Assembly: GCA_020722315.1 (NCBI GenBank) | Contig: DYLD01000008.1 | Span: 1-38,978 of the forward strand | DNA from: Syntrophus aciditrophicus | GTDB taxonomy: Bacteria; Desulfobacterota; Syntrophia; Syntrophales; UBA5619 | Direction: 5' to 3' | Length of the DNA stretch: 38,978 nt | In this document: positions 91 through 38,978 of the stretch, in pieces | How the letters are laid out: each line of letters opens with the position of its first letter | Position numbering within the stretch: the first letter of the stretch is position 1 | Notes under the pieces: generated by a model | Databases searched by the model: none | What the model was told of the DNA's origin: nothing | The model's input: the letters and a program-made list of their open reading frames with translations, nothing else | Position numbers and translations under genes: made by a program

Positions 91-3000
91 ATGACTATGA
101 ATTATTCTTTGGGTTTGGATATAGGTTCGGTTAACGCGAAGGCGGTTCTTGTAGATGAAAAAAAGGACGTCGTTTACCAGGAAAGAGAACGGATCGTAAC
201 AACTCCGAGGGCCGCAGTCATCTCGCTTTTGACCAGATTATCCGCACGGTTCGGCCTCGATGATATCTCTTCTGTCGGCGTGTCCGGCGCCGGAGCGGAT
301 GCGATCCCGAGGGAATTCAATTACAGCCGATACAGCAGCCCGCTTGCGATCATCTTCGGCCTTCTTCAATCGCATCCCGATGCAAAAACCATCATCCAGA
401 TCGGCGGCCAGAACTCTTTTGTTATTGAGCTCGAGGACGGGCTCCGGAAACCGTGGACGGTTCACACGAATTCACTCTGTGCCGCCGGAACCGGAAGATT
501 CATAGAGCAACAGGCATACCGTCTGGATATCACTCTTGAGGATTTCTCCCGCCTCGCTCTTCAGGCCGGCGGTAAACCGCCGCGGATTGCCGGAAGGTGC
601 AGCGTCTTTGCGAAAACGGACATGATTCACCTCCAGCAGAAGGGTCTTCCGAGCGAATCGATTCTGTATGCCCTATCGAACAGCGTCGCGCAGATGGTCT
701 GTTCGTTTAAAAAGGGAAAATTTATCGAACCGATATACTTCACCGGCGGCGTGGCTGCAGGTCCGATCGTTCTCAAGTCGCTGAAGGAGACGATTTCAGC
801 AAGAAATGGGGTTGAAACAACGGTGTTTGTTCCCGACCGGTGCGAGTATATCGAACCGATCGGGGCGGCGCTGCTGGCCAGGGAAGCAAAGAAACGGCCG
901 AAAATCTTTATACCCGAGCACGAGGATGCCGGAAAACAGTACCTGAGGATGCCCAAACTACAGCGGGTTTCTCAGGGAGACTACGCATGGCGCCCCCGAA
1001 AGATAGACCGTCCGATGAAAGGTTATCTCGGGATCGATGTCGGTTCAACAAGTACAAAGGCGGTAATCCTCGATGAATCAGGCGTTGAAATAGCGGCGAA
1101 ACATTACCTGATGACGGAGGGCAGGCCCCTTGAGGCGGTCAAAAAACTCTTTCCGTACCTTATCGACTGGGGCGCGGAGAATGTAGAGGTAGCAGGCGTT
1201 GGCGTGACCGGATCCGGCCGGTATTTGATCGGCAGCTTTGTAGGGGCCGATGTCGTCAGGAACGAGATCACCGCGCAGACAAGAGCTGCCGAGGAGCTGG
1301 ATAGGGAGGCCGACATCATCGAGATCGGCGGACAGGATTCCAAACTGGTCATCAAACGTAACGGGGTGGTTGTCGATTACCAGATGAACAAGGCCTGCGC
1401 GGCCGGCACCGGAAGTTTCATCGACGAGATGGCGGAGTTGCTCAACGTTTCGGTCAAGAACGGTCAATTCGCCGAGCTGGCCTTTCAGGCTCCGTATCTG
1501 GTTGATCTCGGCTCGCGGTGCGCCTCGTTTATGGGGCAGGCGGTAGCCTCCGCGCAGCAGCAGGGTATACCGATCGAAATTATCGCCGCAAGTCTCTGCA
1601 GTTCCATCGCACGAAACTATATTTCCCAGATCCTCGAAGGGAGGAAACTGGGCGATAAAGTCATTCTTACCGGCGCGCTGTTTTTTAATGAAGCGGTCAT
1701 ATCCGCATTTCAGCAGGAACTCGGGGATAGAAAGATCATTATTCCGGAGCACAGAGAGGTCAGCGGCGCGATCGGGGCGGCTCTCTTGGCCAGAGACAGG
1801 GTCTTTGGCAACAAATCCAGATTCAAGGGATTTCGCAGCGTCGTCGAGCAAAAATACAAGGTCAAGACGTTCACCTGCCACAGGTGCGAAAATTACTGCA
1901 CGATCAGCCGCCTGCAGCTTCCGGGGGAACCTGCTACGTTCTACGGGAGCCGCTGCGACCTGTTTGACAGCACAGCCGGCACCGAAAAAAAGGAAACGGC
2001 CTTCGATGAGCGCGAGAAGCTTCTTTTTGCTGGTTATTCCGAAAATTCGGGTTCGGGACTAACGGTCGGCATTCCGCGGTCGCTTCTGATCTACGATTAT
2101 GCACCCCTCGTCATAGGTTTTTTAAATGCGCTCGGCGTTAAAATCCTCATTTCCGACCGTACCAGCCCGCGGACCGTCGATCGGGCCGTGGAGTTGAGCT
2201 ACTCGGATCTCTGCTTTCCGATGAAGTTGATCTACGCGCATGCCGAAAGTCTTAAAGGCCGTGTTGACTACGTCCTCTTTCCTTCGTGTATCCGGCTAGG
2301 TCTGAAAGATGGAGAGGAGAATCAAAAATATTCCTGCCCGTTGAATCAGGCGGCCCCTTTCATTGTCCGTGAGAATCTGAACCTCGGAGAGAAGATGCTG
2401 ATCCCGTTTGTCGATTTCAGCAACGGGGACGAAGACGTCATTGAAAACCTCACCAGGGTCGCGGTTGAAATGGGTTTTCAAAAAAGACACGGAAGGGCCG
2501 CCGCGGTTGCCGGGGTCGAATCGCTGCGGGCTTTTGAAAAGGCGCTCCAGGATAAAGGCCGACAACTGCTGCAGCATATCCATCAAACAGGCCAGATAGG
2601 CGTCGTTGTCATATCCCGCTCGTATATGTTTCAGGATCCGGGTGCAAACCAGAACATCGCGAACGAACTGGCGAAACTCGGCGTCGTCCCGGTTCCTATA
2701 GATTATCTTCCCCTGTCCTCGGTAGATCCGAAGAAATACAGCGACAGGCCGTACTGGATGTACGAGAGCAAGTTCATACAGGCCGCGGATATCATTCACA
2801 CCGATCCCCAGCTCTACGGCCTCGTGCTGACCAATTTCGGCTGCGGTCCGAATTCATTCATATTGCCGGTTGTGCACGACATCATGGGCAGTAAACCCCT
2901 TACGGAGCTTGAGGTTGACGAGCATGCCGCCGAAGCGGGGATCATTACAAGGCTCGAGGCCTTTGTCGATACAATAAAGGGTTTCTACAACTCCAAAAAC

Positions 3001-4233
3001 ATGGTGCAAAGGCTCAAAAAGGATATCTATCGCGGGGCACCGTCGGTCACTCACTCAAAGGGAACGCTTCTGGTGCCCAGAATGGCGCCCCATGCCGAGA
3101 TTCTCAGCGCCGCGTTTCGGGCATTCGGGATCAACGCAATGACGCTGCCGCCGTCCGATGAGACAAGTCTGCTTTACAGCAACAAACTATCAACCGGAAA
3201 GGAATGTCTGCCTTTTCGGATCACGATTGGAGATTTTCTGAGGTTTTTCTACGAGGATGGAAGCCATGGAGTAGACCTCAGCGACGTGGAGGCATTTATG
3301 GCAGGCGCTTACGGTGCCTGCCGCTTCGGGAAGTATGCCCCGGAGCAGGCCCGTGTCCTCCGAGATGTCGGTTTTGATATCCCCGTGCTGACCAGTGTCG
3401 CCAACAACGGCTACCGGGACACCGGCCTCGGAGCGGAATTTGAACGGCTGGCCTGGAGAGGGATTGTAACGATGGATTATTTGCAGAAGATGCTGTGGCA
3501 GACGAGACCGTACGAAAAATCTCAGGGGAGTGCCGACCGGCTTTTTAGCGAACTCGGGGACAGGGTCGCCCGGCGCGTCGAGTCCAAACGGGATTCCAAT
3601 GATATCCTGAAAGAGGCGGGTCCGATGTTCAACGAGCTTGTGGATCCTTCCAAACCGAAAAGACCCCTGGTGGGAATTAATGGGGAGATCTTTCTCAGAT
3701 CCAATGAATTCAGCAACCAGAATTTGGTCCGGAACTGCGAGGCCGCCGGGCTGGAGGTGGTTGTTTCTCCAATCATAGAATGGTTCAATTACGTATCGCT
3801 CAGAGAGGTTGAAGACGGGATCCGGGATCGAAACGTCAGAAAGACAATCTACGCCTATATCAAAAAGATGATACAGAAGCTGGACGAAAGATCGGTTGCC
3901 CGAAACGGGAAATCCTTCATCCGTGTTCATGATACGACGATAGAGGAGCTCTACTCCTTTACCAAACCTTATCTCTCGCCAAAATGCGGCAGTGAGGCGA
4001 TTCTGACGATAGGCAGCGGTGTCGAATGGCTCAAAAATCCGGCCTTTGCGGGCGTTATCACGGTTATGCCTCATGGGTGCATGCCCGGGGGGATCGGAGC
4101 CGCACTCGCCGACAGCCTGAGTGCAAGATACGGCAAACCCTGGACAACCCTGACATATGACGGTACGCCTGAGAGTAATAATTTGACCCGCATCAACAAT
4201 TTTGCCGAGATGCTTAGGTTTTCAGAGAAGTAG
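91..4233 (+). CDS. acyl-CoA dehydratase activase-related protein (two BcrAD/BadFG-type ASKHA ATPase domains plus C-terminal DUF2229/HgdB-like region)
   Basis: 1380-aa ORF; repeated motifs LGLDIGSVNAKAVLVD and LGIDVGSTSTKAVILD, two 'CAAGTGRFI/CAAGTGSFID' motifs, 'VEIGGQDSK'-type motifs, C-terminal 'GIPRSLLIYDYAPLVIGFLNALG'. Confidence 0.92.
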   Translation: MTMNYSLGLDIGSVNAKAVLVDEKKDVVYQERERIVTTPRAAVISLLTRLSARFGLDDISSVGVSGAGADAIPREFNYSRYSSPLAIIFGLLQSHPDAKTIIQIGGQNSFVIELEDGLRKPWTVHTNSLCAAGTGRFIEQQAYRLDITLEDFSRLALQAGGKPPRIAGRCSVFAKTDMIHLQQKGLPSESILYALSNSVAQMVCSFKKGKFIEPIYFTGGVAAGPIVLKSLKETISARNGVETTVFVPDRCEYIEPIGAALLAREAKKRPKIFIPEHEDAGKQYLRMPKLQRVSQGDYAWRPRKIDRPMKGYLGIDVGSTSTKAVILDESGVEIAAKHYLMTEGRPLEAVKKLFPYLIDWGAENVEVAGVGVTGSGRYLIGSFVGADVVRNEITAQTRAAEELDREADIIEIGGQDSKLVIKRNGVVVDYQMNKACAAGTGSFIDEMAELLNVSVKNGQFAELAFQAPYLVDLGSRCASFMGQAVASAQQQGIPIEIIAASLCSSIARNYISQILEGRKLGDKVILTGALFFNEAVISAFQQELGDRKIIIPEHREVSGAIGAALLARDRVFGNKSRFKGFRSVVEQKYKVKTFTCHRCENYCTISRLQLPGEPATFYGSRCDLFDSTAGTEKKETAFDEREKLLFAGYSENSGSGLTVGIPRSLLIYDYAPLVIGFLNALGVKILISDRTSPRTVDRAVELSYSDLCFPMKLIYAHAESLKGRVDYVLFPSCIRLGLKDGEENQKYSCPLNQAAPFIVRENLNLGEKMLIPFVDFSNGDEDVIENLTRVAVEMGFQKRHGRAAAVAGVESLRAFEKALQDKGRQLLQHIHQTGQIGVVVISRSYMFQDPGANQNIANELAKLGVVPVPIDYLPLSSVDPKKYSDRPYWMYESKFIQAADIIHTDPQLYGLVLTNFGCGPNSFILPVVHDIMGSKPLTELEVDEHAAEAGIITRLEAFVDTIKGFYNSKNMVQRLKKDIYRGAPSVTHSKGTLLVPRMAPHAEILSAAFRAFGINAMTLPPSDETSLLYSNKLSTGKECLPFRITIGDFLRFFYEDGSHGVDLSDVEAFMAGAYGACRFGKYAPEQARVLRDVGFDIPVLTSVANNGYRDTGLGAEFERLAWRGIVTMDYLQKMLWQTRPYEKSQGSADRLFSELGDRVARRVESKRDSNDILKEAGPMFNELVDPSKPKRPLVGINGEIFLRSNEFSNQNLVRNCEAAGLEVVVSPIIEWFNYVSLREVEDGIRDRNVRKTIYAYIKKMIQKLDERSVARNGKSFIRVHDTTIEELYSFTKPYLSPKCGSEAILTIGSGVEWLKNPAFAGVITVMPHGCMPGGIGAALADSLSARYGKPWTTLTYDGTPESNNLTRINNFAEMLRFSEK

Positions 4234-5044: not shown

Positions 5045-5342
5045 AGAAAATCCGATAGACCTGAAATCCGATCCGCATGCGGCGGTATGGAATGGAGCAT
5101 ACAGGAGATTTAGTTCCAACCCGAAGCCGTCCGAGACGACGATGCCCGATTTTATGCCTTTATCCCGCACTGCTCAAGAATGGTTGGAACATTCCGGTAC
5201 GATGTGATGATGATTGGCCGGCTCGGGAGTAATGTCTATGTCCTGTATTTGTCTGTAGACTTTGACACCGTGCACGGTATTTGCCGACGGATGAAAAGGG
5301 TAAATTTGCCCCTGATACCCCCCGTCGAGAAGATCCCTCTTT
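5045..5342 (-). pseudogene. decayed fragment of a CoA-binding domain protein (ADP-forming acyl-CoA synthetase/Pat family)
   Basis: Minus-strand fragments RDLLDGGYQGQIYPFHPSANTVHGVKVYRQIQDID, VPTILEQCG and RDKGIKSGIVVSDGFG occur in order but in different frames or separated by a TGA. Homology starts exactly at the edge of repeat copy A. Confidence 0.7.
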
Positions 5343-5540
5343 GAAACCTTTGAAAAATGCTGCCTGTAGCGCAAATTTATTGATTTTTCTTAGGTACCCC
5401 GCCGTCGTAGCCAAGGCTCTAAAAGGCGTGAAAAACGCGAACTATCCCAGAGCGTTTAGCCTTTAGAGCCGAGTCCCGAGACGCCACGGGGTCGAAAAAG
5501 ATCCGATCAGCGCGAAAGGCGGCGTTTTTTAAAAGGTCTC
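5343..5540 (+). repeat. MITE-like hairpin element, copy A (forward)
   Basis: GAAACCTTTGAAAAATGCTGCC...GGCGGCGTTTTTTAAAAGGTCTC; flanked by perfect 5-bp direct repeat TCTTT (5338-5342 / 5541-5545). Confidence 0.88.
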
Positions 5541-5588
5541 TCTTTTGACTGACCTCCTCTGTATTTTTCCCGTCCCGCCGGTTTGCCG

Positions 5589-6392: not shown

Positions 6393-7550
6393 TTAGTACC
6401 GCAGATAACAGGTCAGGGGTTTGATCTTTCCCTTTTTGATCGTGTATATTTTTGCCGAAACGTTCGGCTTTCGCAGGTTGGGTTTATATTGCACGTCTGC
6501 GCTGAGACCCATCATGTTGAATTTGTTTGATTCGAAGACCTTCTTGATGTTCTGCCCCGTTAGATGATTGTCCGCTTTATGCAGCGCCTGAACAAGCAGA
6601 TAGGCGTTGATAAATCCCTGGGTGTATTGAACCGGCTGGGGATCGTTGTTGCCTGTTATCTTTTTGTGAACCTTGTGCATGAACTGGACGCCTTTGAGAT
6701 TTGTTTCGGTCCAGAACGCAACAGGCATCGTTGCCATGAAGCCTTCAGCGGCGTTACCGGCCAGCGGGATCAAATTTTCGGATAAGCTCCAGACCAGCCC
6801 GATGAACGTTGTTTTCAAACGAAGTTTCCTGGCGTCCTTGAGTATTGCCGCCGTTGCCGTCAGCGTGTGCTGGTTGATTGCGTAATCGGGCTTTTTCGTT
6901 TGCATCGCGAGAAGCTGTGATGTGGCATCGAGATCCTGCAGGCCGATAATTTCGTGGTCAACGATATCTACGCCAATTTTTTTTGCGAATACCTCCGCAT
7001 CGCGGATCGGCGAAAGTCCGAAACCGGTGTTACTGTACAGCAACGCGACTCTCGGCGGCCTGCCTTTCTCCCTCCAGTTGTCCTTGATCCATTGCAGCGC
7101 AAGTCTCGCCTGATCGGAATAGGTCGTCGCCCCGACAAAATTATACGGGGTTTTCTCGAAAACAAGCTGTTCCGCGTACGAGGCCGAGATATACGGTATT
7201 TTGTCTTTTGCGACCCTGGACGTCAGTGCCTCGGTGTCATCCGTCCCCCAGCCTATGATTGCGATGACTCCTTTTGCCGTCATTTCTTCGTAGGCAGATA
7301 TGGCTTTAGGGACTTTGTAGGCGTAATCAAAAGAGATTAATTCAATTTTTTTTCCGTGCACTCCGCCATGATTATTAACATACTGAATGTACTCTTTAAC
7401 TCCGTTCGCATAGGGCGTGCCGACGTCGCTCGTAATGCCCGTTATGTCAAAGATGCCCCCGATCTTTATAGACTCCTGTGCAAGTGCCGGGCCGCCGAAC
7501 GATAAAAGCAACAAAAAGACCGGGACCAACTTTTTTATTGCCGGTGTCGA
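6393..7550 (-). CDS. branched-chain amino acid-type ABC transporter substrate-binding protein, 5' end interrupted by repeat copy B
   Basis: Signal-peptide core KKLVPVFLLLLSFGGPALA-QESIKIGGIFDITGITSDVG...; periplasmic binding protein type 1. The ORF-track extension to 7826 reads through repeat B and is probably not native. Confidence 0.8.
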   Translation of the reverse strand, partial: STPAIKKLVPVFLLLLSFGGPALAQESIKIGGIFDITGITSDVGTPYANGVKEYIQYVNNHGGVHGKKIELISFDYAYKVPKAISAYEEMTAKGVIAIIGWGTDDTEALTSRVAKDKIPYISASYAEQLVFEKTPYNFVGATTYSDQARLALQWIKDNWREKGRPPRVALLYSNTGFGLSPIRDAEVFAKKIGVDIVDHEIIGLQDLDATSQLLAMQTKKPDYAINQHTLTATAAILKDARKLRLKTTFIGLVWSLSENLIPLAGNAAEGFMATMPVAFWTETNLKGVQFMHKVHKKITGNNDPQPVQYTQGFINAYLLVQALHKADNHLTGQNIKKVFESNKFNMMGLSADVQYKPNLRKPNVSAKIYTIKKGKIKPLTCYLRY

Positions 7551-7726
7551 GAGACCTTTGAAAAATGCTGCCTGAAGCGCGATTTTAAAGATTTTTCTTA
7601 GGTACACCCCGCCGTCGCAGAAAGGCTCTAAAGGCGTTAAGAACGCAAGCGTTACAGAGCGTTTAGGCTTTAGAGCCTTTTGCGAGACGTTGCGGGGTCG
7701 AAAAAGCGGCGTTTTGCAAAGGTCTC
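7551..7726 (+). repeat. MITE-like hairpin element, copy B (forward, ~20-bp internal deletion in right arm)
   Basis: GAGACCTTTGAAAAATGCTGCCTGAAGCGC...GGCGTTTTGCAAAGGTCTC; perfect 5-bp direct repeat GTCGA (7546-7550 / 7727-7731). Confidence 0.93.
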
Positions 7727-7843
7727 GTCGAAAGAGTCTGTTTTTGTAAGGAAAACATTCGGTTAGGCTTACGTAATCGGATATAACCTTACAGATTATT
7801 CGTTGTTTACGGTGATGTACTGACATGGTTGCGCATGCAGAGA

Positions 7844-8040
7844 GTGACCATTGAAAAATGGTGCCTTAAGCGCTATTGATTTTTCTTAGGTACCCCGCCG
7901 TCCTCAGAGCAAGGTTCTAAAGGCGTTAAGAGCGCAAACTTATAAGAGCGTTTAGCCCCCTAGAGCCTTTTAGCAGAGACGCCGCGGGGCCGAAAAAAGA
8001 TTTCATCAGCGCGAAATGCGGCGTTTTGCAAAGGTTTTTG
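7844..8040 (+). repeat. MITE-like hairpin element, copy C (forward)
   Basis: GTGACCATTGAAAAATGGTGCC...GCGTTTTGCAAAGGTTTTTG; possible TSD AGAGA (7839-7843 / 8041-8045) if the right end is at 8040. Confidence 0.85.
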
Positions 8041-8111
8041 AGAGAGTACATTCGGCAAATGCGATAGCAGGCGGATTACATTCCGAAAAGGATGCAAGTC
8101 CTGGACGGATA

Positions 8112-26967: not shown

Positions 26968-26988
26968 AATGCCCATTCTTTAGGCGAT

Positions 26989-27181
26989 GAGACCTTGGCA
27001 AAACGCCGCCTTTCATGCTCATAAATCTTTTTCGACCCCGCGGCGTCTCTAAAAAAGGCTCTAGAAGGCTAGACGCTCTTTTAAGCTTGCGTTCTTAAGC
27101 CTTTAGAGCCTTGCTGCGACGACGGGATACCTAAGAAAAATCAATAAATTTGCGCTTCGGGCAGCATTTTTCAAAGGTCTC
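26989..27181 (-). repeat. MITE-like hairpin element, copy D (reverse)
   Basis: GAGACCTTGGCAAAACGCCGCC...GCAGCATTTTTCAAAGGTCTC; perfect 5-bp direct repeat GCGAT (26984-26988 / 27182-27186). Confidence 0.92.
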
Positions 27182-27310
27182 GCGATGCAAGAGCCTGAAG
27201 AGTCGATTTTTCAATGGCCCTGATTTATGGCGGGGCGGATGATATGAATGATTTTCCCGGTTGTCAAGCAAGGATTTACGGAGGTTAGCAAGCCGGCGAA
27301 TGGTTTCATC

Positions 27311-32912: not shown

Positions 32913-33077
32913 GAGCCTGGCAAACCGCCAAAGGTGGTTTCATAAAGCGCGGTTTAAAGGTTATTTCTGTTCACCCCGTCGTCGCGGCGAACGTAAAAGG
33001 CCTGAAAAACAACGCGAGATAGCGCTGTTTAGCCTTCGAAAGTCTGAGCGAGACGTAGGAGTTTCGTAAAAAGCCTC
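32913..33077 (+). repeat. diverged relative of the MITE-like hairpin element (copy E)
   Basis: GAGCCTGGCAAA...AAAGCGCGGTTTAAAGG...CACCCCGTCGTCGC...AAAAGGCCTGAAAAACAACGC...GCTGTTTAGCCTTCGAAAG...GAGACGTAGGAGTTTCGTAAAAAGCCTC follows the element order but is weakly conserved; no TSD seen. Confidence 0.5.
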
Positions 33078-33285
33078 TTGAGCGTGCATAAAAAACGTTT
33101 TGGATGGTCCGGCAAAACTATCTTTTAGTTAATTCCCGGTACAAATATATAAAAAAGTTGTTTTTAGCAAGAAATAAATGTTTGTTCTGCCGGGATGCAG
33201 GCCAACTCGTTTTCGATGCATTCACCAAAAAGTATTTTTTAATCGTGATGTTTATCTCTCAAAGAGCATCTTTTATGATATGACC

Positions 33286-36772: not shown

Positions 36773-36787
36773 TGGTGGTTGGAGTGT

Positions 36788-36993
36788 GAAAGCCTTGCAC
36801 AACCAAAAGAAAAATACTGCCTGAAGCGCAAATTTATTGATTTTTCTTAGGTACCCCGCCGTCGCAGGAAGGGCTTTTAAAGGCGTCAGGAACGCGAACG
36901 ATCCCAGAGCGTTTAGCCTTTGAAGCCTTTTGCGAGATGCCACGGGGTCGAAAAATATTTATGAGCGCGAAGGTGGCGTTTTTCAAAGCTCTC
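36788..36993 (+). repeat. MITE-like hairpin element, copy G (forward, 12-bp insertion near left end)
   Basis: GAAAGCCTTG[CACAACCAAAAG]AAAAATACTGCCTGAAGCGC...GGTGGCGTTTTTCAAAGCTCTC; perfect 5-bp direct repeat AGTGT (36783-36787 / 36994-36998). Confidence 0.88.
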
Positions 36994-37000
36994 AGTGTTT

Positions 37001-38808: not shown

Positions 38809-38978
38809 GAGACCTTTGCAAAACGCCGCCTTCGCGCTCATAAACCTTTTTCGACCCCGCAACGTCTCGCGGCGGCTTCAAAGGCTAAACGCTCTCTATA
38901 GTTCGCGTTCTTAACGCCTTTGCAGCCTTGCTGCGACGGCGGGGTACCCCCGAAAAATCTTTAAATCGCGCTTCAGGC
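38809..38978 (-). repeat. MITE-like hairpin element, copy H (reverse, cut by window end)
   Basis: GAGACCTTTGCAAAACGCCGCCTTCGCGCTCATAAACC...GCGACGGCGGGGTACCCCCGAAAAATCTTTAAATCGCGCTTCAGGC; continues past the window. Confidence 0.9.

Follow-up and report, generated by a model that had tools for sequence, protein, structure and literature searches.

A high-copy hairpin MITE family with IS5/ISNme1-type ends in a Syntrophus genome

The window, meaning the whole stretch of 38,978 nucleotides analyzed here, carries seven copies (A, B, C, D, G, H and a decayed one at 32940-33086) of a MITE of about 195 bp that is self-complementary over nearly its whole length. In all likelihood, this element is a non-autonomous hairpin MITE spread in trans by an IS5-family (ISNme1-like, IS5_4) transposase. 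A sequence-only reading of the window had proposed a candidate new MITE, and this interpretation is borne out by terminal inverted repeats, target duplications at 33 of 67 copies, about 180 or more dispersed copies and the existence of IS5-family relatives with matching ends. The features identified in the window are:

5338-5342, no strand: target duplication TCTTT left of copy A, identical to 5541-5545
5343-5540, plus strand: MITE copy A, 198 bp, end-to-end alignment, fold z -4.0
5541-5545, no strand: target duplication TCTTT right of copy A, identical to 5338-5342
7551-7726, plus strand: MITE copy B, 176 bp, target duplication GTCGA at 7546-7550 and 7727-7731
7844-8040, plus strand: MITE copy C, 197 bp, right tip decayed, target duplication AGAGA at 7839-7843 and 8041-8045
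26989-27181, minus strand: MITE copy D, 193 bp, target duplication GCGAT at 26984-26988 and 27182-27186
32940-33086, plus strand: decayed MITE copy without recognizable terminal repeats, profile match with E 1.1e-9
36788-36993, plus strand: MITE copy G, 206 bp, exchanged left end GAAAGCCTTGCACAACCAAAAG, target duplication AGTGT at 36783-36787 and 36994-36998
38809-38978, minus strand: MITE copy H, truncated by the contig end, found by profile search and from the sequence

All six copies named in the sequence-only reading (A, B, C, D, G and H) were found and can be aligned end to end, and the span it had singled out, 5338-5545, corresponds exactly to copy A plus a 5-bp target duplication on each side. 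Perfect 5-bp direct repeats flank all five complete copies that it had named (A, B, C, D and G). The claim of shared ends holds for the copies in general, with the exception of copy G, the left end of which (GAAAGCCTTGCACAACCAAAAG...) departs from the consensus. Copy B adjoins, just upstream, the gene of a branched-chain amino-acid ABC substrate-binding protein (6393-7538, minus strand) at its signal peptide, with copy C located about 120 bp beyond copy B and thus farther from the gene start. Given their position upstream of this gene, copies B and C may have altered its native start region. Elsewhere in the window, a 1380-aa ORF (91-4233) contains two stretches of acyl-CoA dehydratase activase (benzoyl-CoA reductase activator-like).

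The window belongs, as one of 422 contigs, to a host genome bin of 3.02 Mb. Searching this bin for the terminal pattern GAGACCTTTGNAAAAYGNYGCC with up to 3 mismatches yielded 360 matches compared with 2 for the reversed control, which makes the element first noticed in the window a dispersed repeat far beyond chance. The right-arm and left-arm motifs occur 155 and 96 times in the genome, respectively. In copies fetched irrespective of their ends, this pattern detects 52 of 60 ends, so that the 360 ends translate into about 180-205 elements. Together they occupy about 1.2% of the genome, at a spacing of one element every ~15-17 kb. The high density remarked on earlier is real for the window, with six or seven copies per 39 kb, and is about three times the genome mean of roughly one per 17 kb. 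Many contigs end inside the element, so that the assembly seems to have been fragmented by the repeat itself.

Copy statistics were obtained from sampled loci. The 67 distinct full-length copies have terminal inverted repeats at both ends, vary in length between 176 and 236 bp with frame-breaking variation and carry no transposase gene. Perfect 5-bp duplications flank 33 of them (0.6 expected from shuffled flanks), with no excess at other lengths (one duplication of 4 bp and none of 6 bp). About half of the copies thus do not have a perfect duplication, which counts against transposition as the main reading; this is expected at the divergence observed and would also fit loss by other routes. 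In this sample, the nearest relative of a copy is about 5% or more diverged and the average divergence is 19%, indicating that the amplification burst is old, although younger, identical ones might escape notice in gaps of the assembly. Among the 57 insertion sites with sufficient flanking sequence, 49 lie outside predicted ORFs, in sampled DNA that is ~78% coding. The remaining 8 are found within a predicted ORF, several of them close to the ORF start.

The terminal repeat of the MITE, GAGACCTTTGnAAAA, is that published for ISNme1 of the IS5 family, which is listed as GAGACCTTTGCAAAA (PMC4596501), and the ends conform to the sequence GAGACCTTTGCAnAA that marks MITEs derived from IS5-family (ISNme1-like/IS5_4) elements. 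An autonomous IS with matching ends, which the sequence-only reading had suggested looking for, was sought in the host bin without success. Intact IS5-family elements that end in GAGAC/GAGAG-CTTTGCA and carry 5-bp duplications do occur in same-family and same-order genomes. Autonomous elements of this type include:

L151, 12569-13790: intact element of 1222 bp, target duplication GGCCT
L118, 4531-5749: intact element, from the terminal-repeat scan
L314, same family as the host: IS5_4, target duplication ATCAG
L313: IS5_4, target duplication GCGGG
L317: IS5_4, target duplication GAAGT
L190, same order as the host: IS5_4, target duplication TCTCC

The L151 and L118 elements come from a terminal-repeat scan of viral contigs. 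The 335-aa transposase of L151 matches NF033581 (IS5_4), PF05598 (DUF772) and PF01609 (DDE_Tnp_1), and all four relatives tested (L190, L313, L314 and L317) are IS5_4. Duplications of 5 bp were found at seven autonomous relatives (L151, L185, L190, L200, L313, L314 and L317), the last six of which fall within the phylum, order or family of the host and have ends of the same kind. One end of L313, GAGACCTTTGAAAAACGGT, is identical to the initial 19 bp of certain MITE ends. The right end of this IS5-family element (L313 2714-2771) also shows a 19-bp tandem duplication of GAGACCTTTGAAAAACGGT. The unusual left end of copy G resembles the GAGAGCTTTGCACAAC ends of the IS elements L314 and L190; it is found in two further genomic copies, and in copy G itself it stands beside an intact 5-bp duplication.

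Against this reading stands the host bin, in which searches turned up no IS5_4-type transposase, although the bin is fragmented and collapsed multi-copy IS elements are easily lost from bins. The sole PF01609 match in the bin, a 565-aa transposase, was considered as the mobilizer and rejected, being unrelated and without MITE ends. An autonomous element in the same genome is not required of an accepted MITE. The ends and duplications of the relatives suggest that the ISNme1-like/IS5_4 transposase class did the mobilizing, and with none of its members found in the bin, the mobilizer is known as a class and not as a resident gene. In the proposed mechanism, two terminal inverted repeats of ~22 bp, GAGACCTTTGAAAAATGCTGCC and GAGACCTTTGCAAAACGCCGCC, would be recognized in trans by an ISNme1-like IS5_4 transposase, which would excise or copy the element and reinsert it at staggered 5-bp cuts, giving rise to the 5-bp target duplications. 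The element would have spread in this way to roughly 180-205 copies, mainly between genes, most of which would have decayed neutrally since, and the mobilizing transposase would today either not exist in the strain or have dropped out of the assembly.

The single long hairpin described from the sequence was found to be real by comparison with shuffled sequences. Copy A folded as DNA reaches -38.9 kcal/mol, compared with -25.5 for its shuffles (z -4.0); for copy D folded as RNA, the values are -72.6 and -53.5 (z -3.8). None of the shuffles attained the native fold energy in either case. Such a strong hairpin would also be expected of a functional structured RNA or transcriptional signal, for example a terminator or processing hairpin, that is under selection at many loci and is not a mobile relic. 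The location of intergenic copies could be taken in the same sense, as 33 of 48 sit between genes of the same direction, frequently where the gap is <150 bp, with 8 between divergent and 7 between convergent genes. At these tandem-gene sites, however, the strand split of 20 to 13 reveals no clear preference, and a search of Rfam returned no family matching the element. Selection on the fold was assessed by comparing the pairing of arms within a copy with pairing across different copies. RNAalifold did not recover the hairpin from the 67-copy alignment due to local misalignment, and stems were taken from the consensus fold instead. Neither the outer stem (0.793 in the same copy, 0.792 across copies) nor the middle stem (0.851 and 0.847) shows excess within-copy pairing, which indicates that individual copies decay as neutral DNA.

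An excess was only observed in the inner stem, largely due to a 7-copy subfamily in which both sides have changed from GGCTCTAAAGGC/GCCTTTGAAGCC to GGCGGCGAAGCC/GGCTTTGCCGCC. Reading this change as an inversion was rejected, as it is a coordinated substitution in two arms; in at least one amplifying copy, the two arms changed jointly. This is the one instance of co-variation that a selected RNA or signal could claim, and together with the perfect 5-bp duplications, which indicate transposition, the absence of co-variation in the outer and middle arms makes that explanation improbable. With similarity reaching at most 95%, mostly intergenic positions and arms that do not co-evolve, most copies look like neutral relics. 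Still more remote is the idea that a RAYT (REP-associated tyrosine transposase) mobilized the element as a REP/BIME-type repeat. Such repeats are likewise numerous, palindromic and intergenic, but the literature describes REPs as palindromes of 20-40 bp (PMC3733652), compared with 195 bp, long terminal repeats and 5-bp duplications here.

The origin of the hairpin body is a separate question. Many MITEs originate as internal deletions of full-length IS elements. A simple internal-deletion derivative of one full-length IS of the host genome, as opposed to a hairpin body that gained IS ends, would accord with this general origin and with the match between the terminal ~19-22 bp and IS5_4 ends. 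We consider it unlikely, since visible likeness to the ends of L313, L314 and L190 stops within the terminal repeat and since the interior recurs elsewhere, in genomes where different ends bound it. The same-order genomes G016 (22), G023 (10), G030 (4) and G343 (3) contain the interior arm of the window element in multiple copies. Local alignments to these core-sharing relatives reach scores of 42-56, the highest score of shuffled sequences being 23-27. At one G030 locus (L303), the alignment to the window element spans both arms. There is no convincing GAGACC end in G016, only one match with 3 mismatches, and no GAGACC end near the core at the G023 and G343 loci. Dismissal of the single weak G016 match as chance was dropped, the conserved interior then having been found there. 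The loci L286, L294, L304, L307 and L310 (G023) as well as L293 and L299 (G343) contain the core of the window MITE with different, longer ends. G030 was rejected as a case of full two-end exchange; some of its copies retain degenerate GAGACC-like ends at the expected distance, and end exchange is therefore best supported for G016 and G023. The hairpin body is probably an older repeat of the bacterial order that was later given IS5-type ends.

Conversely, the same ends bound other hairpins. Of the 297 genomes sampled from the phylum, 22 contain the terminal pattern, and it is additionally present in one named Desulfobacteraceae bin. Both a 142-bp family (L053, L054, L056, L058, L063, L068 and L072) and a 131-172-bp family (L065, L069 and L070) combine these ends with 5-bp duplications. 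In the same-family genome G013 (L328, L331 and L334), GTCATTCC-type hairpin repeats are bounded by GAGACC ends, and target duplications were not seen at these G013 hairpins. The interior of the 142-bp family occurs in 38 of the 297 genomes, and many of these show it with different ends of comparable length, namely AGTGYCC... or GGGTACCTTG.... Among AGTGYCC-ended elements, 6 of 10 have a 4-bp duplication (1.4 expected from shuffled flanks) and one more has a 5-bp duplication. The 142-bp hairpin (L063 1501-1642; L264, L267, L270 and L276) has a core of ~98 bp that was observed with at least 3 kinds of ends and differing duplication lengths.

We hypothesize, on the strength of several comparisons and with the case for and against evenly balanced, that hairpin cores and transposase ends are exchangeable modules, the cores persisting across genera and families of the phylum while the terminal ~20-40 bp are replaced. 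Under the same even judgement, one core would be moved by different transposases, leaving duplications of 5 bp (GAGACC ends) or mostly 4 bp (AGTG ends), and several unrelated cores would share one set of ends. If true, conservation would lie in the hairpin and not in its terminal repeat, contrary to how MITEs are usually seen. If end exchange is upheld, bacterial MITEs would outlive their parent IS through recruitment to a new transposase. A literature search for bacterial MITEs with exchanged ends found nothing pertinent.

The window element belongs to an already known kind, being an IS5/ISNme1-type MITE, here at a higher copy number than published ones. The earlier suggestion that it is new stands at the level of the family, which has no Rfam match and is set apart from BrickBuilt by description and from ATR by one interior. 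It adds a high-copy MITE family with a plausible mobilizing transposase class, based on ends and duplication length. ISNme1-type MITEs had been described in the host-associated Neisseria and Porphyromonas; their range now includes an uncultured lineage and, within one phylum, three or more types of hairpin. With ISNme1 and NF033581 IS5_4 elements, the MITE shares the terminal repeat GAGACCTTTGCAAAA and, as regards the members detected here, duplications of 5 bp. These elements are autonomous, 1.2-1.45 kb in length and encode a DDE transposase, and in sequence the MITE has no more than the terminal ~19-22 bp in common with them.

The Neisseria meningitidis AT-rich repeat (ATR), a MITE attributed to ISNme1 (PMC4596501), is 181 bp long, non-coding and mostly intergenic with IS5/ISNme1-type ends (PMC5383966, PMC4596501). 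It resembles the Syntrophus element in its ends, in being non-coding and in its mainly intergenic location, but differs in its unrelated interior, in its 12-19 copies per genome compared with about 180 or more here, and in favoring convergent gene pairs, which the Syntrophus element does not. Two 181-bp GAGACCTTTGCAAAA-ended elements flanking a TonB-dependent-receptor-like gene (L100 1368-1548 and 4532-4712) resemble the published Neisseria ATR; by inspection, the interior of this 181-bp ISNme1-ended element differs from that of the window MITE. BrickBuilt of Porphyromonas gingivalis likewise has an IS5-type terminal repeat, GAGACCTTTGCA, common to IS5-family elements (PMC4596501). It differs by an internal 23-bp minisatellite, irregular duplications and a copy number of 19, and its defining 23-bp repeat (PMC4596501) was not seen in the window MITE. 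The Chunjie MITE of Geobacter uraniireducens (178-235 bp, 38 copies with conserved ends and 57 partial ones; PMC10969869), compared by its published description, is similar to the Syntrophus element in size and MITE type.
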